DNA from: Pirellulaceae bacterium
GTDB taxonomy: Bacteria; Planctomycetota; Planctomycetia; Pirellulales; Pirellulaceae
DNA: 54,859 bases
Assembly: GCA_030681235.1 (NCBI GenBank)
Contig: JAUXWY010000139.1
Location: forward strand, 1-54,859
Reading direction: 5' to 3'
The notes under the pieces: generated by a model
Database searches by the model: none
What the model was told of the DNA's origin: nothing
Seen by the model: only the letters and a program-made list of their open reading frames with translations
In this document: piece after piece, positions 6,113-38,363 of the stretch
How the letters are laid out: every line of letters begins with the position of its first letter
Position numbering within the stretch: the first letter of the stretch is position 1
Position numbers and translations under genes: made by a program

Positions 6113-7387
6113 TCAACCGCAACTCTTGCTGAGCGAATCCAGGGGCACTCGATCCGCCGGCACAGTGAACTGTCCCGCTAAGGCGATCACGTCGCGACGA
6201 ACTTCTTCCAACTTGTCCGCGTTATCGTGATGCCGCAGCGCTTGCAAGATCCAATCGGCGATGGTCTTCATCTCGTCCGAGCCCATGCCACGGGTCGTAA
6301 GCGCTGGGGTGCCAATGCGAATCCCGCTGGGGTCGACCGGGCGGCGCTGATCAAACGGAATCATGTTCATGTTGACGGTAATGCCGCAGTGATCCAAGGT
6401 CGACTCGGCGATCTTGCCACCGATCCCCAACGGAGTCACATCGACTAACAACAGATGGTTGTCCGTGCCACCGCTGACAATTTTTAGGCCGCCACTTTGC
6501 AAGGCTTCGGCCAACGTCTTGGCATTGGCCACAACTTGGGTTTGATAATGGATGAAGTCTGGGCCAAGTGCTTCACGGAAGCAAACGGCTTTGCCCGCGA
6601 TCACGTGCATCAAGGGACCGCCTTGCATGCCCGGGAACACGCTTCGATTGAGCAGCTTTTCATCTTCCGAGCTGCACAGAATCAATCCACCGCGAGGACC
6701 GCGCAAGGTCTTGTGCGTGGTCGTGGTCACAAAGTCAGCCACGCCGACCGGATTGTGATGCAAACCGGCCGCCACCAAACCGGCATAGTGGGCCATGTCC
6801 ACCATCAACTTCGCCCCCACGCCGCGCGCGATTTCGGCAAACCGATCGTGTGGGATCTCACGTGGATAAGCACTAGCGCCGGCGACAATCAGCTTGGGCC
6901 GATGCTCGGCGGCCAATCGTGCGACTTGATCGAAGTCGATCCGCGAATCCTGTGGGCTCACTCCGTAATGGACGAAGTTGTACAGTTGTCCCGAAGAATT
7001 CAGTTTCATGCCGTGCGTCAAATGCCCGCCATGAGCCAGATCCAGACCCAAGACCGTATCACCGGGCTTGAGTAGGGTCATGTAAACGGCTTGGTTGGCC
7101 TGGGAGCCCGAATGCGGTTGCACGTTGGCATGAGCGGCACCGAACAATGCTTTGGCTCGGTCGATCGCCAACTGTTCGACGGTGTCCACGTGTTCGCAAC
7201 CACCATAATAACGCTTGCCGGGGTACCCTTCGGCGTACTTGTTGGTCAACACGCTCCCAACCGCTTCCATCACCGCCGCGCTGGTGTAGTTTTCGCTGGC
7301 GATCATTTCGAAGCCTTCGCGTTGTCGCCGAGCTTCGGCGACAATGGCTTGGGCGAGGGCCGGATCTTCGTGGGCCAAGATACTCAT
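6113..7387 (-). CDS. glyA: Serine hydroxymethyltransferase
   Basis: Cytoplasmic PLP enzyme that interconverts serine and glycine and charges tetrahydrofolate with a one-carbon unit. The 424-residue length is normal. Visible motifs include [11 protein letters not shown] near residue 27, [15 protein letters not shown] near residue 55, and the PLP-lysine segment [14 protein letters not shown] near residue 225. The C-terminal [18 protein letters not shown] is also typical. The ATG at 7387 has AAGGAA about 10 bases upstream. It is followed upstream by the methyltransferase gene with a gap of 56 bases, so a two-gene transcript is possible. No glycine-cleavage genes are nearby. Confidence 0.98.
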
Positions 7388-32087: not shown

Positions 32088-33026
32088 TCAATCAGCTCCA
32101 TTCGAAAGCGAAATCCAATCTGGTCTTTTTCCGGCGATGCCTCGATCTGATTCGACAATAAACGGTGTTGCGACATTCCATGTGCATGTGTTATTGGCAC
32201 GATGGAATGAGAATTTTGTCGAACGAATCGACTCTTGATGTGTATCATCACCAACGCTTACAACAACGACTTTTGTAGAAGACAATAGTTGATTCGATTC
32301 AATCGTGTTCGCCAGTTTCACAAGAAATTCACTGCACTTTGCACATTCGTCACGTACGATTACTAACAGGAACGTATCAGCCGCTAAGACGGGAGCGATT
32401 TCGGAATTGAGCAAAACGGCATAATCAATTTTGCTGCCAATAATTCGATTATCAATTGTAACGACATCCTTTGAATAGAGCAGAAAGGACTTCGTTGGAT
32501 CCGTTGTCGTCGAACCCAATAGGGTTGGGGCTTTGGTCGAGTAAACAGCCAAGAGCACAATAAACGCGGCAGAAAATAAGACGAATACGTGCAAGCCAAG
32601 AGTTCTTAGCCCCGATCTCACTGCTCTTTCGGCAAGGGTTCCTGAGTTCATCGATAAAGTGAAAGCGGTTGCCGCAATGACAACATCAAAGATCGCCATT
32701 GCGATTGGCGGTATTATCACTGGTCCGAAGCAACCGCACGAATCGTCGCCAACTTGATACAACGAAAATTGCCAGATCGAAAAAACGAAAAAAAGTCCCG
32801 CAATAGCCAGCAGGTTCACGTGCGGACGAAATAACGTATCCGTCACCAAACTTAGCCCGACCGTCAACTCAAGGAATATAATAGTTGCAGTGAAGGCGAA
32901 GACTATTGCAGACGGCGGAAGTCCGTCAGCAAACAGCGTCAGCGACTTGAGGACAGCGGCCACCATCAGCAAAACACCGACTGAGATGACAAACAACCTA
33001 TCAAATTGGAATCGCGATATCGACAT
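32088..33026 (-). CDS. MauE-like membrane protein fused to a thioredoxin-like domain
   Basis: Product of 312 residues. The N-terminal half has four or five membrane helices with the MauE/DoxX-type redox motif DDSCGCFG near residue 95. After a further helix (VLFSAAFIVLLAVYS, about 150-165), the C-terminal part is an exported domain resembling thioredoxin or peroxiredoxin folds (TFLLVIVRDECAKCSEFL), with a CxxC motif near residue 230. MauE supports disulfide formation in methylamine dehydrogenase. Here the fusion suggests electron transfer across the membrane to exported thiols. It closes the five-gene run that starts with a 12-Cys secreted protein. Confidence 0.75.
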   Translation of the reverse strand: MSISRFQFDRLFVISVGVLLMVAAVLKSLTLFADGLPPSAIVFAFTATIIFLELTVGLSLVTDTLFRPHVNLLAIAGLFFVFSIWQFSLYQVGDDSCGCFGPVIIPPIAMAIFDVVIAATAFTLSMNSGTLAERAVRSGLRTLGLHVFVLFSAAFIVLLAVYSTKAPTLLGSTTTDPTKSFLLYSKDVVTIDNRIIGSKIDYAVLLNSEIAPVLAADTFLLVIVRDECAKCSEFLVKLANTIESNQLLSSTKVVVVSVGDDTHQESIRSTKFSFHRANNTCTWNVATPFIVESDRGIAGKRPDWISLSNGAD

Positions 33027-33035
33027 ACTGCCTCG

Positions 33036-34463
33036 TCACTTTTTGTTCACGGGCCGCAATAGGAACTCTGCGGCCATCGGGAATTCCGGGTATTTGTATT
33101 TTGCTAACCAATCCGAATCCAATTTATGACGCGTCATAATCGAACTATAGCGATCAACGGCTGCGTTGCATGTCTTGGCATACTCTTCACGCAATTGCTT
33201 CAGGCCCAGTTCAAACGCCTCGGACGACGGTCGCGTTTGGCTGTCCAATTCGTCATAGATAACATGGGGACCTATAGTAAATAGGGCATGAAACCGGACG
33301 TAGTTCGCAACCCCAGCCATCTGCCGCGGCGTCAACGCGGCCTCGATCGCTTCGTTTTCTTTGATCGCAGTTTCCAGCAACATTTTCTTCAGTGCAACGG
33401 GATCGCTGGCCAGCTGCCGAATCTTTTGTGCCGAGTCGGCACCATCGCCAGGCCGAAGGTTTAATCCAAGTACACTTTCAATGGAGGGCAATTGATATTC
33501 GGCCAAGTCGCCATTGGCGTTACTCATAACCATCCTGGCAACCGAAGCCGGGGCAGCTGAATTCAAACTCCGTTGAACCACCCGAACTTGTCCTCCGGGT
33601 CGAAATTGAACCGATTGTGATGGAAAAACGAAGCGACCCTCTAGCGGGTTAACCTCCGTTCCCTCGCGGAGCTTCTTCCAATCCCTGCGACACACATCCG
33701 GAGTTGCTGCCAATTCCAAGAACAAGCCAATTGGCAAAACCATTTCTTGCGGGAGCCTAAGTTCGCGTGCATCAATGAAACCCGGAAAAATCTTCTCCAA
33801 ATGATGCACAAGGAGCTGGTTGTATTCCCCGCACAGTTCTAGTCGCAGCGCCTCCAATTCTTTGCTAAGTTCCATTTTGCTGGTGGCAGGAAGTTCACTA
33901 ATATCAAGAACTTGCTCCAAAGAATCGAAATGGACTCCGTTGATCAACACAATATCACGCAACCGAAGCTGGTCTAGCATTCGCTTTTGTTGCTCCGTTG
34001 CCTGAGCCTGAAGTTCGCTTTCGTAATCGTTCAATTTTTGAACAATTGCGTCGAAAACGGCCATTTCACCCGTCTCTTGATAGACTCGTAATTTCTCAGG
34101 CCATTCCTTTTCAAGTTCCTGGCTGCGTTTGATCAACGAATCTACCTTGCTGCCAGCGAAAACGAAGCCAGAGATTTTCGCGTCGCTCAGCAGCTGATAT
34201 CGGCGAAAATCACCTACCACAACCGTGATTCGATGTCCGGCATCGATTAGTTGCCAATCATCGGCAACACGGAATACCGCCATCGACTCCTGTTTAACAC
34301 GATCCTTGATCGCCTGCAAATTAGCACTCCACTTGAGCGCCTTCTGCTGCAATTCCTGGCGTCGGCGTTCCAATTCTTCGGACTGGCCAAATAGGTTGTC
34401 GTTAAGACAAAACAACAGGAATACTGCAAAATGAAGCACTACGTATTGCGCACGAAAATTCAT
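33036..34463 (-). CDS. Secreted helical protein of unknown function
   Basis: I do not recognise this family. From the ATG at 34463 the 475-residue product starts with a signal peptide (FRAQYVVLHFAVFLLFCLN). An upstream ATG at 34499 would overlap the C39-like gene. The mature chain opens with a coiled-coil-prone region (SEELERRRQELQQKALKW, about 30-60). It continues with charged helices and two short beta-like regions, FRVADDWQLIDAGHRITVVV and VQFRPGGQVRVVQRSLN. It has few cysteines. It lies nine bases before the MauE-like gene and 25 after the C39-like gene, so it belongs to the same operon. Confidence 0.75.
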   Translation of the reverse strand: MNFRAQYVVLHFAVFLLFCLNDNLFGQSEELERRRQELQQKALKWSANLQAIKDRVKQESMAVFRVADDWQLIDAGHRITVVVGDFRRYQLLSDAKISGFVFAGSKVDSLIKRSQELEKEWPEKLRVYQETGEMAVFDAIVQKLNDYESELQAQATEQQKRMLDQLRLRDIVLINGVHFDSLEQVLDISELPATSKMELSKELEALRLELCGEYNQLLVHHLEKIFPGFIDARELRLPQEMVLPIGLFLELAATPDVCRRDWKKLREGTEVNPLEGRFVFPSQSVQFRPGGQVRVVQRSLNSAAPASVARMVMSNANGDLAEYQLPSIESVLGLNLRPGDGADSAQKIRQLASDPVALKKMLLETAIKENEAIEAALTPRQMAGVANYVRFHALFTIGPHVIYDELDSQTRPSSEAFELGLKQLREEYAKTCNAAVDRYSSIMTRHKLDSDWLAKYKYPEFPMAAEFLLRPVNKK

Positions 34464-34488
34464 GATCGATCCACCGAAAGAGTATAGA

Positions 34489-35682
34489 CTATGGTTCATT
34501 ACTCAAGAAATATCCTTGAATCGCTACCCCTCCATGAACATTCCCATTTTGCACGTCAACGAACTCAAGTGTATCGAGAAACGCTCCCGATTCATTCGAT
34601 AGACGTTCGATTTCAAGTTCGTACGCAACAATTGAAGGCGAGTCATTGATCGGCACAAAGCCGGCGCTACCCGCACCAACGGCAGCATTGTATTCGTCAA
34701 GTGAAATGTGATTACAAACGATTGCCCAACGTTCAGGCATTTGTTGCCTAAACACCATGCCATCATTAAATTGATGGCCGATCGGTAAATCGACCAGAAT
34801 ATGACGCTTAAACACCTGAGATGGACGCACGTATTCCAGGTCAATCTTGGCCGGATACACTTCAACACGCCCGCGAAATACGCCGGAAACTTCTAACGTT
34901 ACAAACGGACGCTTCGGGTCATTCGACGTTACGACGAAATGCTGTTGAAAGAATCCGTTGTCTTTACTGATTTTTGGAATGTACTGGGCACGAATTTCAA
35001 CGACTTCTTCAATCGCAATTTCGTCTTTTGGCCATTCGACCCTAACACAATCACACCCTACTTGGACATTTTCGATCTTTAAAGGTTTATCGCCGTGATT
35101 TGTTACCTCAAAAGTAAACCAGGGTGTCTTCCCTAAATGTTCGTAAAATTCCAGTACACCTGTATCAATGACAAGCGTGTTAAAACTAATACCAGGGCCG
35201 CTAGAACGTTCGATTTTAGGGCGAGCCACTTCCAGCCAAACGCCGGAGTATCTCGTGTCGATGTTTTTACTTTCACCTTCCACCACCGCTTTGTAATCTA
35301 CGTGATACTGAAGCCGACCGTCCACTCCGCGCGAGACGACAACAAAATGGTTGGGTGAGTTCAGCTTTAAGACTGCGATTCGATCTTGTTCTACATGATA
35401 CTCGCCTAGTCGCACTTCGACACCAAAGCCAACACGCTTTAGACCGTCAGCAAGCTCACGTACTGTCATGCCGGCGTCGCGCATCGGCAAACTCGCCAGT
35501 TGCTGTTTTCCTATGTCATAACCAAGCAGTTGCGAACTTCTATAAAAAACCCAATGTCCGCACTGTGCATGAGAATCAAATTGGTTTTTTTCATGTGCTT
35601 CATTGTGACGTTTTGACGCAACGATAAAAACAGCTGTACTCGTTAGTAGCAATGCCAAGACCTTAGCCGAAGCTCCCAACAT
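34489..35682 (-). CDS. Exported C39-peptidase-like domain joined to a DUF1573 domain
   Basis: Product of 397 residues with an N-terminal hydrophobic anchor (VLALLLTSTAVFIVAS). Residues about 38-135 resemble the C39 bacteriocin-processing peptidase fold: a Cys in AQCGHWVFYRSSQLLGYD near residue 41, the helical MTVRELADGLKRVGFGVEV, and a His in PNHFVVVSRG near residue 109. From about 185 a DUF1573/ASH-type beta-sandwich follows (WFTFEVTNHGDKPLKIENV then GCDCVRVEW). Whether it cleaves a leader or only binds one is unknown. AGGAG precedes the ATG. It lies nine bases after the upstream secreted protein gene. Confidence 0.7.
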   Translation of the reverse strand: MLGASAKVLALLLTSTAVFIVASKRHNEAHEKNQFDSHAQCGHWVFYRSSQLLGYDIGKQQLASLPMRDAGMTVRELADGLKRVGFGVEVRLGEYHVEQDRIAVLKLNSPNHFVVVSRGVDGRLQYHVDYKAVVEGESKNIDTRYSGVWLEVARPKIERSSGPGISFNTLVIDTGVLEFYEHLGKTPWFTFEVTNHGDKPLKIENVQVGCDCVRVEWPKDEIAIEEVVEIRAQYIPKISKDNGFFQQHFVVTSNDPKRPFVTLEVSGVFRGRVEVYPAKIDLEYVRPSQVFKRHILVDLPIGHQFNDGMVFRQQMPERWAIVCNHISLDEYNAAVGAGSAGFVPINDSPSIVAYELEIERLSNESGAFLDTLEFVDVQNGNVHGGVAIQGYFLSNEP

Positions 35683-35691
35683 ATCTTACTC

Positions 35692-36780
35692 CTAGGGCTT
35701 CTTGTTTTGCAGCTCATGCAGGCGGGTATTCCTAGTTCGCGTGTCGACGACTTGAACTTGATCCGAAACGGGCAGACTATCAATTTCGAACTGTTTGCTC
35801 AGGTCGCCGTTAATTTGATGGGAATACCAACTTCGTTCACAACGCTGCTTCCATTGATTTCGCAAAAAATCAAACTGATCGCTTGTGGCTCGGACTGGAA
35901 CCCAACAATTATCGAACTGGGCAAATTGAGTGGACTGGACATAAACCGCACTCGGTGTCGTTCGGTTTTCCCGATAGACAGAAAACCCGCCTTGGTCCAA
36001 ATCAAATAACCACAATAAGTACGACTCAAGTCGACCGACTTGACTTAGTTTCAACTGCACCAAGCTTCCTTTCTTGTGCATGGCGACGACATAGAATTTA
36101 TTGCTAATCCGATCAACGGTTTCAGCCCAAAAGTCTTCCGGACTGCGATAGTCTGTCAGCCAGTGGTAATTCAGTTCGAGATTGGAAATTCCCGTGTGAA
36201 ACTTCGCCGGCTGGCGAATCGAGATCGTTTCAAATGCCTTTCCAGCCTCGAAGTTGTTGAACCGATCCCCATAAACAAGCATCCCTGGTGTATAGATCTT
36301 CGCTTCAATAGGAAGAAATCGCTCGCTGTGATACCTACCCCCTTCTTGCCACAATTTGATTGGCGGATAGCTCATGATTCTCTTCAATGAACGGGCTTCC
36401 TGATCATACCAGTTGACTTGGTGGGCCACCGTGCTTTGCCCCCCACCATGGCGTGCAATATTCTTCCACTCTTCACAGTAGACCGACTTCATCCGAGACA
36501 AGTTTTCCACCTGCAGGTCTCTCAATTGTTTCGCGACAAGTCGCCAGTCTTCAACTTCGTCAGCTTCAACTAACTCGCGGGAAACAAATGCGGGCGGACC
36601 AAGAGACGGAATTGGAACGGGAGATAGGTCGCGTCCCTCCCCCATTTGTTCATCCAATTTATCCGTTGATTGAAGCCGAGCCCCGAATACCAAGCCTTGA
36701 ACGCTTCCCGATCCCGAAAAAGCCGCAACTAATAGAATCGACAAACACCTCGATAAACTAATCGAGCGAAAAATCGACAT
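35692..36780 (-). CDS. Secreted protein of unknown function
   Basis: Product of 362 residues with a signal peptide at MSIFRSISLSRCLSILLVAA. The mature part has a proline-rich start (SPVPIPSLGPPAFVSREL), then a helical segment DWRLVAKQLRDLQVENLSRM. A mixed, probably beta-rich region of about 220 residues follows (SLVQLKLSQVGRLESYLLWL; SVYRENRTTPSAVYVQSTQF), which loosely recalls LolA-like or outer-membrane lipoprotein carrier folds. The resemblance is weak and I leave the function open. It lies 62 bases after the 12-Cys protein gene. Confidence 0.72.
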   Translation of the reverse strand: MSIFRSISLSRCLSILLVAAFSGSGSVQGLVFGARLQSTDKLDEQMGEGRDLSPVPIPSLGPPAFVSRELVEADEVEDWRLVAKQLRDLQVENLSRMKSVYCEEWKNIARHGGGQSTVAHQVNWYDQEARSLKRIMSYPPIKLWQEGGRYHSERFLPIEAKIYTPGMLVYGDRFNNFEAGKAFETISIRQPAKFHTGISNLELNYHWLTDYRSPEDFWAETVDRISNKFYVVAMHKKGSLVQLKLSQVGRLESYLLWLFDLDQGGFSVYRENRTTPSAVYVQSTQFAQFDNCWVPVRATSDQFDFLRNQWKQRCERSWYSHQINGDLSKQFEIDSLPVSDQVQVVDTRTRNTRLHELQNKKP

Positions 36781-36841
36781 TAGAACACCTCCCAGAACGA
36801 ACTACTCAAAAGCTAAATAGAATAACCCCAAAGTCGAGTCA

Positions 36842-37540
36842 TTACGGAGTCAACGGTAACCCTAAATCACACGACTCGTCGAAGAAATAGGTTCGCAATG
36901 TTATTCCTAGCGTCCAGGCGTTTAGTTCGAGCAGTTCAGGCGCTCGCATCGTGCATGTCCGGCAATATCCCTCAAACCCTCGATCCACCGGATTTTGAGG
37001 ATTTGGCCCACCTGGGACACAATTACCCGGAAATACCCCGACCGCTCCATTGTTCTGCCATGTTGCAACGTCGCAATCCATTGTATTGTCCGGGTCGCCA
37101 GGTTCACAAATCGCCGGTCGCGTGCACCATTGAGCTATAACTGTACTTGTTGATACAAACTCGTTAGGAACGGACTGCAGCATTACTTCGTCCACCATGT
37201 TGGAATATTCCAAACTCGGAGAATAGTCACAATTACGACCCGGTGGGATCGTATTATTAATAAACGGAGCTAATACATTTGGATTAGGATCCCACTGATC
37301 ACACCCGATAAAATCGCAATAGTTATTGAAGTTGCCACCAAAAGCCGTGTCGCATTTTCCGGTTTCTTCTCGAATACCGGCCACACATAGCCCGTTTACC
37401 GTAATGCCAGGAATTACTACATCCAAACCATGGTGAATGCTCGCGAGATATTCCCGAAATGGATAACTTGAAACTACCACGAATTTTGCGGAGCCAAACG
37501 AGACCAACGCCACCAAAACAATTGATGCAAACCACTTCAT
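36842..37540 (-). CDS. Secreted 12-cysteine protein, possible substrate of the redox operon
   Basis: Product of 232 residues from the ATG at 37540; GGGAGG upstream fits this start better than the ATG one codon earlier. Signal peptide WFASIVLVALVSFGSA. The mature chain has 12 cysteines, an even number that suits up to six disulfides, including a CRTC motif near residue 199. It is rich in Asn, Pro and Gly and resembles no family I know. As first gene of a run with a MauE-thioredoxin fusion and a C39-like protein, it may be the exported product that those proteins mature. That role is inferred from context only. Confidence 0.68.
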   Translation of the reverse strand: MKWFASIVLVALVSFGSAKFVVVSSYPFREYLASIHHGLDVVIPGITVNGLCVAGIREETGKCDTAFGGNFNNYCDFIGCDQWDPNPNVLAPFINNTIPPGRNCDYSPSLEYSNMVDEVMLQSVPNEFVSTSTVIAQWCTRPAICEPGDPDNTMDCDVATWQNNGAVGVFPGNCVPGGPNPQNPVDRGFEGYCRTCTMRAPELLELNAWTLGITLRTYFFDESCDLGLPLTP

Positions 37541-37563
37541 CATTGCCTCCCTCGAACGGTTAA

Positions 37564-37604
37564 GAGCTCTGAAAACACGAGAGCTCTGAAAACACGAGAG
37601 CTCT
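37564..37604. repeat. 17-bp tandem repeat, about 2.5 copies
   Basis: The unit GAGCTCTGAAAACACGA occurs at 37564 and 37581, and a partial copy starts at 37598. Each contains a GAGCTC palindrome. It lies about 25 bases upstream of the 12-Cys gene start, in its leader or promoter region. Confidence 0.85.
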
Positions 37605-38125
37605 CACCTAATGGCAATCCTAACAGAAAAGTCCACCAAGTCAATGCAGGAAACTCAAAATAGAATGTTTTTAAGAAATTCAAACGCTTCTCGATTTCGG
37701 CCAAGTCTATACTCGTCGGTCTTTGCGTGGGCGCCTTGGTTGACGACTTTTGCTTGATCGTTGGATCAACTTCCAGTGGTTTTACCAATTCTTTTGGCCT
37801 CAAATGCTTGGCAGGCCCGGTTGAGGTCGCTCATGATTTTTAGGCGTTCCAGAATGGCGGCGGGACTTCTATCGATAACGATGCCCCGCGAACGAGCTTT
37901 GAGAGCGGTGTCGTCTGGTTGCGTGGAAAAGGGGGGAAAAGGGGGACACACAACTTTCTGGTTGTGGCCGGGGAGGATTGGGGGGGGTGTGGTTGGCTCT
38001 GAAAGAGAGTTCGCGTTTACTCGGCGGATTTTTTCGGTTTCTCGGTACATCAGCATGGCCGGTTTTCGAGGGCGTAGGACCGGTCCGGCTTCAGACACGT
38101 CAGCAAGTAGGCCGATCGGTTTTGG

Positions 38126-38169
38126 TCTTGGGTACGGAGCGTCCGGACTTGCGAGCGTGAACCGTTGCG
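38126..38169. repeat. Direct repeat flanking hairpin element B, left copy
   Basis: The stretch begins TCTTGGGTACG and ends GACTTGCGAGCGTGAACC plus TTGCG after one variable base. It recurs at 38301-38344 with changes only in the middle and one base near the end. The pair brackets the hairpin element. Confidence 0.8.
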
Positions 38170-38224
38170 GTCTCGGTGAAGCTGTTTTGCTGAACAAGTC
38201 TGTCCCTCGACCGCTCTCTGCGCG

Positions 38225-38300
38225 TGGAGGCGTTCTAGCCTCCAAACTTACGCTCCAACGGGAACGAGCCCGTTGGGGGCGGTCATCGCTCGGGGTTTGT
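38225..38300 (+). repeat. Hairpin repeat element, copy B
   Basis: A perfect eight-base stem CCAACGGG (38254-38261) and CCCGTTGG (38268-38275) encloses a six-base loop. Flanks match copy A at 31845-31920: TAGCCTCCAAACTTACGCT on the left and GGGCGGTCATCGCTCG on the right. Stem bases differ from copy A at several positions, yet pairing is kept. Confidence 0.65.
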
Positions 38301-38344
38301 TCTTGGGTACGAATCTCGCGGACTTGCGAGCGTGAACCATTGCG
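38301..38344. repeat. Direct repeat flanking hairpin element B, right copy
   Basis: Second copy of the stretch at 38126-38169, sharing TCTTGGGTACG and GACTTGCGAGCGTGAACC. It ends 19 bases before the stop codon of the PQQ-like protein gene. Confidence 0.8.
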
Positions 38345-38363
38345 TCCACTTTTGGCGGCCGCC

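Follow-up and report, generated by a model that had tools for sequence, protein, structure and literature searches.

A recurrent planctomycete gene cassette for the probable export and oxidative folding of a diversifying protein rich in disulfides

What is the function of a compact operon that begins with an exported protein of 12 cysteines (Cys) and ends with a membrane protein carrying redox-type motifs? The question is raised by a 54,859-nucleotide stretch of Pirellulaceae DNA (contig JAUXWY010000139.1 of assembly GCA_030681235.1, hereafter the window), in which five co-oriented minus-strand genes (32088-37543) encode, in order of transcription, the exported 12-Cys protein, a second exported protein (sec2), a protein that joins a C39-like stretch to a DUF1573 domain, an exported and mainly helical protein (HEL) and a fusion of a MauE membrane domain with a thioredoxin-like domain (MauE-Trx). 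We consider it probable that this operon represents a recurrent type of cassette, whose task is to export a diversifying, disulfide-rich protein and to fold it oxidatively. A preliminary description of the same DNA had proposed this set of five genes in this order, with the 12-Cys protein first, and the open reading frames (ORFs) were indeed found where it placed them, with all 12 Cys present. Of the gaps it gave (62, 9, 25 and 9 bases) both 9-base ones stand, whereas the longest ORFs, which were called greedily here, give 61, 9, -11 and 9 bases, the third becoming 25 only if the HEL gene starts at an internal Met.

The presumed product has exactly 12 Cys (residues 53, 64, 76, 81, 105, 140, 146, 157, 175, 194, 197 and 225), i.e., all of them at residue 53 or later, and no double-glycine (GG) cleavage site is visible by eye ahead of its Cys-rich part. 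It is an orphan: as a query it retrieved only itself and weak partial matches from 242 genomes of the family, and only itself and one weak match elsewhere from its own genome, while a Pfam scan gave no usable score for it, for sec2 or for HEL. Tandem short copies of a gagctctgaaaacac-like unit lie directly upstream of its gene (37560-37605). At the other end of the operon, the naming of the fifth protein as MauE holds, with 31.9 bits against a Pfam gathering cut-off of 27 (PF07291), and a thioredoxin-like part with a CxxC motif is present; Thioredoxin_8 reaches only 16.9 bits in this protein, below its cut-off of 27. In an alignment of 14 MauE-Trx proteins, neither the two Cys of the CxCFG motif nor those of the thioredoxin CxxC vary, and the best matches of the profile of these proteins in the PDB are thioredoxins (E 9e-4).

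Matches to the MauE-Trx sequence were obtained in 19 of the 242 family genomes, its own included, and matches to the 14-protein profile in 47; this profile was built from proteins that include the window's and from loci first found with it, and the family set is in this sense not independent of the window. Sixty places were fetched in the family (loci are given L numbers below, genomes G numbers); the 60 distinct MauE genes counted here do not include L137, L138 and L189, which have no called MauE ORF, or one duplicate MauE. Around the 60 genes we applied a strict rule for Cys-rich exported ORFs: 60-260 residues, an N-terminal hydrophobic segment followed by at least 6 Cys and at least 4.5% Cys, no other membrane segment, the same strand as MauE and a distance within 6 kb. 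Such an ORF lies near 30 of the 60 distinct MauE genes (616 kb of single strand), and a looser first form of the rule likewise gave 30/60. With both strands counted, the same rule returned a single ORF in 389 kb of control regions (positions picked by the analyst on contigs from fourteen of these same genomes) and a single one in 550 kb around genes for DUF1573 only. The 33 Cys-rich ORFs found by rule (31 distinct) are themselves diverse: at E 0.01, 21 match no other member of the set, and the remaining 12 fall into five groups. The window's 12-Cys protein is one of many mutually unrelated Cys-rich proteins. Its own genome holds six MauE matches by profile, with four further cassettes (L144, L196, L197 and L198) whose Cys-rich ORFs have 11, 12, 15 and 13 Cys over the whole ORF; the sixth MauE gene (L199) has no Cys-rich ORF by rule.

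By architecture, L208 repeats the order of the window, i.e., a Cys-rich protein (172 residues, 9 Cys), a membrane-anchored sec2, DUF1573 (26.8 bits, cut-off 26.1), HEL and MauE-Trx, with gaps of 81, 1, 1 and -4 bases. Other loci are variations on it: Cys-rich, sec2, DUF1573 (48 bits), MauE and HEL in L134; sec2, DUF1573, MauE and HEL in L139; Cys-rich, sec2, DUF1573 and MauE in L145; and a Cys-rich protein of 16 Cys, sec2, a C39-DUF1573 fusion, two further ORFs and MauE-Trx in L132. The co-occurrence suggested as a check on the original proposal is therefore found at the level of architecture (the five-gene order of L208, the Cys-rich ORFs beside 30/60 MauE genes), but not as a conserved set of five families. 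Some cassettes have further features of their own. A MauE/Cys-rich/sec2 unit occurs in tandem and on a second contig in L179 and L180 (G271), with an identical Cys-rich ORF in all three copies, which could be real amplification or assembly. Small regulator-like ORFs that form one cluster stand beside the cassettes of L130, L201, L204 and L205, the one in L205 having a LuxR-type helix-turn-helix domain (GerE).

If the Cys of these proteins form disulfides, their number in the mature part should be even. With the mature part defined by an automatic cut after the hydrophobic core of the signal, 30 of 32 Cys-rich proteins, the window's included, have an even count (25/27 after collapsing relatives). 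Without the signal cut the figure is 20/32, and among other exported ORFs of 280-560 residues in the same loci, taken as a control, it is 56/99. The parity rule had been framed after inspection of the sequences, hence a hold-out of 20 unread places for which the prediction was recorded beforehand and the rules were left unchanged: a Cys-rich ORF was found in 9 of the 20, and all 12 ORFs had even counts, three of the 12 being related to one another and to L197. Even mature counts in both sets (30/32 and 12/12) lead us to conclude that the Cys of these exported proteins are probably paired.

The earlier proposal of a maturation system for a disulfide-rich exported protein is well supported by the Cys-rich neighbours, by the parity and by the order of L208, and we picture the system as follows. 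The 12-Cys protein, judging from its sequence, would cross the inner membrane by means of its N-terminal signal. MauE-Trx, with its CxCFG membrane domain and its CxxC thioredoxin-like domain, would then form or reshuffle the disulfides of the product as a thiol oxidase or isomerase, a role suggested by its motifs, its neighbourhood and the published suggestion for MauE, and by the parity as far as paired Cys in the product are concerned. The C39-like domain would trim the product where it is a true C39 (L132 and L206), and less clearly in the window. The DUF1573 protein, sec2 (usually membrane-anchored) and HEL may act as exported helpers or partners. Finally, the product may be exchanged, with signal and partner anchor staying in place while the mature part and the body of the partner are replaced jointly, for which L375 is the one clear case.

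How does such a scheme compare with known systems? The beta subunit of methylamine dehydrogenase is a small protein with six disulfides. According to the passages on MauE in PMC7794033, MauE has been speculated to form disulfides in this beta subunit, and the MauE/MauD system of Paracoccus denitrificans resembles our cassette in the MauE-dependent maturation of a disulfide-rich exported subunit. What differs is that the cassette has MauE fused to a thioredoxin-like domain, and DUF1573, sec2 and HEL in addition. None of the five operon proteins matches the mauA/mauB dehydrogenase families (a comparison that covered the operon), and six Cys-rich proteins that were scanned have no Pfam family over cut-off. 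The same passages describe, from the decRiPPter analysis of Streptomyces, mauE homologues beside predicted precursor peptides in three candidate families of ribosomally synthesized and post-translationally modified peptides, with a modifying role proposed. In these families, too, a MauE gene stands beside genes for small products; as far as these passages go, the planctomycete cassettes differ by their host phylum, N-terminal export signals, larger products, the fused thioredoxin-like domain and, in some loci, tandem pairs with an anchored partner. The open-access literature that we searched, which comprises open-licence works only, yielded no description of such a cassette.

Several observations weigh against this reading, and they concern the MauE genes and the parity as well as the C39-like stretch, sec2 and HEL. 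Half of the MauE genes (30/60), the window's own among them, have no strict Cys-rich neighbour; some of these contigs end early, L177, L201 and L128 come close when read by eye, and in L141 a Cys-rich ORF lies on the opposite strand. A second hydrophobic stretch keeps the window's 12-Cys protein from passing the strict filter, and it is a miss in the 30/60 but counted in the parity set of 30/32. Outside the family the MauE profile matches 62 of 382 genomes of the phylum, own included (E 1e-10), and only 3 of 27 MauE ORFs there have a strict Cys-rich neighbour (40 places were fetched, and 14 without a called MauE ORF are left out of the 27). By motif label the thioredoxin CxxC is missing in 27 of the 60 family MauE ORFs, 8 of which are also without the CxC motif; 15 of the 27 still have a Cys-rich neighbour, and the thioredoxin domain is thus unnecessary for the association. 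By eye, a DUF1573-like stretch replaces the thioredoxin part in several CxxC-less MauE ORFs (e.g., L129, L136 and L144). In L192 (6433-7998) and L199 (6722-8416) one protein combines a family 2 glycosyltransferase with MauE-like and DUF1573-like parts, neither of which reaches its Pfam cut-off.

The parity itself is ambiguous, as even counts fit metal sites too. The Cys might instead bind a metal or cofactor, as in an electron carrier or metal sensor, with MauE-Trx keeping them reduced; thioredoxin-like domains are capable of both reduction and oxidation, and mature counts are a multiple of four in 14 of the 32 proteins of the first set and in 7 of the 12 of the hold-out. However, counts span 6 to 16 with 10 as the commonest (12/32 in the first set), neither a recurrent ligand spacing nor any other shared Cys spacing was seen by eye among the Cys-rich proteins, and these proteins are exported. 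We regard metal binding as improbable.

The third protein had been described as C39-peptidase-like, and this label is not borne out by profiles. Its DUF1573 part is secure (PF07610, 58.6 bits, cut-off 26.1, 6.3e-16), while the C39-like part amounts to a motif pattern, Cys41-His112-Asp129, in C39-like contexts by eye, and in a MAFFT alignment with L132 and L206 only the Cys is aligned in all three. PF03412 has no match in the window protein (E 1) or in the domain alone (E 10), a search of the own genome with PF03412 gave three matches elsewhere without the window protein among them, the hhalign probability between the window's C39-like stretch and those of L206 and L132 is 0.6%, and the PDB held no usable relative of this stretch. 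True C39 domains do occur in two loci: fused to DUF1573 in L132 (27.9 bits, cut-off 22), where a PDB search finds the peptidase domain of ComA (E 4e-4), and as a separate gene between the DUF1573 and Cys-rich genes in L206 (28.6 bits, cut-off 22). A profile of the three C39 stretches (window, L132 and L206) found no further C39 among the cassette loci, and C39 is therefore a minor part of the cassette family. These two domains, together with a few GG-like leaders recognized by eye, recall the double-glycine exports through ComA/bacteriocin-type ATP-binding cassette (ABC) transporters. The window operon, in contrast, has no ABC transporter, its C39-like stretch sits on a DUF1573 protein and its product has no GG leader, and it is not a member of the C39/ABC bacteriocin systems. 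The C39-DUF1573 protein was also tried as a query of the family and set aside, as it gave itself and matches of the DUF1573 part; none of the 40 loci fetched in this way matched the MauE protein and only one (L041) held a strict Cys-rich ORF, 13 of the 40 having been read gene by gene.

Sec2 and HEL are linked to the other cassettes by place in the operon. Positional counterparts of HEL exist in L208, L134, L139, L203, L207 and L209, and sec2-type proteins with one C-terminal anchor in 40 loci by a loose rule that also catches unrelated ORFs; 17 of the anchored proteins belong to a single family, in many of whose members a YGLPEP-like motif precedes the anchor. Yet hhalign probabilities are below 1% between the window's sec2 and two groups of sec2 in relatives, about 3% between these two groups, and below 1% between the window's HEL and six other HELs. 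With probabilities this low we claim no homology across sec2 types, and as the window's sec2 and HEL are not linked by sequence to their counterparts, their role in our scheme follows from position and from both being exported. A model of the sec2 of L144, from the same genome, reached a predicted local distance difference test (pLDDT) score of 58; its best structural neighbours, VioE, RseB, LolA and LprG, have scores too weak to rely on, and sec2 may, on this low-confidence model, have a LolA/RseB-like half-barrel. The HEL model has a pLDDT of 45, and the HEL profile retrieved no usable match from the PDB. The LTXXQ/Spy-CpxP family (PF07813) has no match in the window's HEL and stays below its cut-off of 24.3 bits in the HELs of L139, L203 and L209 (18.3, 16.4 and 20.0 bits), which is at most a hint of a Spy/CpxP-type chaperone. 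Could the five genes, then, be exported genes without a shared function that came together by chance on an A/T-rich island? That the window's sec2 and HEL lack detectable homologues in other loci speaks for this, but the architecture recurs and the enrichment of Cys-rich ORFs is far above control, and we think it very improbable.

The diversification of the product is best seen in L375 (G357, labelled as the same genus as the window), where three Cys-rich/sec2 pairs follow one another in tandem. Between the pairs, 33-34 of 35 residues of the signal region are the same, against 12-17 of 56-64 in the mature part, or 6-11 of 50-58 if the shared Cys are excluded; in the same way the sec2 bodies agree poorly and their last block at 30-32 of 34 residues. 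In the DNA, the pairs have in common a block of 129-166 bases across start and signal (90-95%) and a second of 145-207 bases at the end of sec2 (87-93%); between these two blocks the pairs do not match. This is the pattern that joint replacement of the mature part and the partner body would give. In L130, two sec2 copies are identical over the last 115 aligned columns and unlike before them. In L202 (7807-15196) three Cys-rich ORFs are interspersed among four sec2-type ORFs, and one of these four starts with a Cys-rich-like N-terminus; the copies in this locus are still similar over their whole length. By eye, GG-leader-like N-termini occur in L205, in L178 and in one ORF of L375, the latter a Cys-rich ORF (6289-6639) whose N-terminus ends in GG-leader-like DEEAVVGG and which is divergent from the three tandem pairs alongside.

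Such loci raise the possibility, compatible with oxidative folding and adding a role for the product, that the Cys-rich proteins form an exchangeable arsenal of antagonistic effectors, similar to bacteriocins or toxins, with sec2 as a cognate anchored immunity protein or receptor. The exchanged pairs of L375, the interleaving in L202, the GG-leader-like N-termini and the 21 Cys-rich ORFs without relatives in the set all favor this. In the proteins scanned, however, no known toxin domain turned up, sec2 could equally be a dedicated chaperone, clear exchange is confined to one locus, the three Cys-rich proteins of L202 are still alike, and the window has a single copy whose sec2 is anchorless, so that we hold the effector role to be possible but rather unlikely. 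A likeness to polymorphic toxin-immunity cassettes, as outlined in the excerpted text of PMC3482391, lies in L375, where the trafficking end is kept and the effector end is exchanged with a co-changing partner; differences from what that text outlines are the small Cys-rich products and a signal peptide in place of a large delivery module. We tentatively postulate, as a conjecture that is more doubtful than the exporting and folding cassette itself, an arsenal of conotoxin-like proteins in planctomycetes of this family, i.e., proteins with a constant signal and a hypervariable, fully disulfide-paired mature part, dedicated folding by MauE-thioredoxin and a cognate membrane-anchored partner (immunity protein, receptor or chaperone), the pair being exchanged as a block by recombination at signal and anchor.

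MauE-Trx might, on the other hand, serve pseudopilins or a type II-like secretion system, the Cys-rich protein being a surface fibre or tip exported with DUF1559 pseudopilins. MauE-Trx does lie within a type II secretion operon in L316/L317 (G587, a genome from outside the family) and beside a GspL gene in L140 (G316), and DUF1559 prepilin-like genes are present in many cassettes (PF07596 with N_methyl in L136). However, no prepilin motif was flagged in the window operon or in L208, nor seen by eye in the Cys-rich proteins, and we judge this alternative unlikely, more so than an effector role. The type II operons with MauE-Trx inside or alongside contain GspE, GspF, GspL and pseudopilins, and this placement suggests a redox step for planctomycete type II secretion.

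If the exporting and folding cassette is real, a poorly understood phylum would have a dedicated multi-copy system that makes disulfide-rich secreted proteins outside the cytoplasm, whose products may diversify as animal venom peptides do and may include new antimicrobial or recognition molecules, and MauE-thioredoxin fusions and DUF1573 proteins would gain a testable role. Through the gene-neighbour rule, some 36 groups of small Cys-rich proteins, unrelated to one another, have already come to light (27, and 9 from the hold-out).

How did the window come by its copy? The operon block has a G+C content (GC) of 0.474, against 0.549-0.584 in 149 other 5456-base segments of the contig, and its five genes have third-codon-position GC (GC3) of 0.42-0.53, against 0.61-0.68 in nine flanking genes; the block is thus A/T-richer than its neighbours, as had been noticed at the outset, and its third codon positions show the same. 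The accompanying hint of transfer gains support from this low GC and from an empty site in the closest named relative, L236 (JAEUIP010000127.1, CarA 92% identical), which has the same flanking genes on both sides and 78 unaligned bases in place of 6750 (Table 1). Two further relatives, L237 and L238, share the CarA side only. The simplest reading is that the cassette arrived by gain in the window's lineage as an A/T-rich island; the site is empty in L236, and loss of the island there would be the alternative to gain.

Table 1 Features of the operon and of its surroundings in the window
Feature	Position	Strand	Basis
Exported 12-Cys protein, 233 residues, presumed cassette product	36842-37543	-	ORF, N-terminal hydrophobic signal
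sec2, exported, 362 residues, without C-terminal anchor; positional counterpart of the anchored sec2 of relatives	35692-36780	-	ORF
C39-like stretch and DUF1573 protein, 397 residues	34489-35682	-	DUF1573 6.3e-16; C39-like is a residue pattern only
DUF1573 domain, residues 184-267	34882-35133	-	Pfam
HEL, exported mainly helical protein, 487 residues	33036-34499	-	ORF; position
Fusion of MauE membrane domain and thioredoxin-like domain, 312 residues	32088-33026	-	MauE 1.8e-7; aligned with 13 relatives
CGCFG motif, MauE part, residues 97-101	32724-32738	-	both Cys invariant in 14 sequences
CAKC motif, thioredoxin-like part, residues 228-231	32334-32345	-	both Cys invariant in 14 sequences
6750-base stretch absent from the same site in closest named relative L236	31615-38364	.	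comparison with L236
Dispersed non-coding repeat, partly tandem, beside the operon	38016-38344	.	own-genome matches

Two minor observations concern the surroundings and the relatives of the operon. The non-coding repeat beside it (query 37900-38360) is dispersed over many contigs, with 74 listed matches to it in the own genome, self included. Relatives of the DUF1573 protein with one in-frame TGA, found in seven f18 genomes (L015, L017, L023, L029, L031 and two more), may be selenoproteins; the OS_HP2 selenoprotein model also gives a match, below its cut-off, to the DUF1573 part of the window protein.

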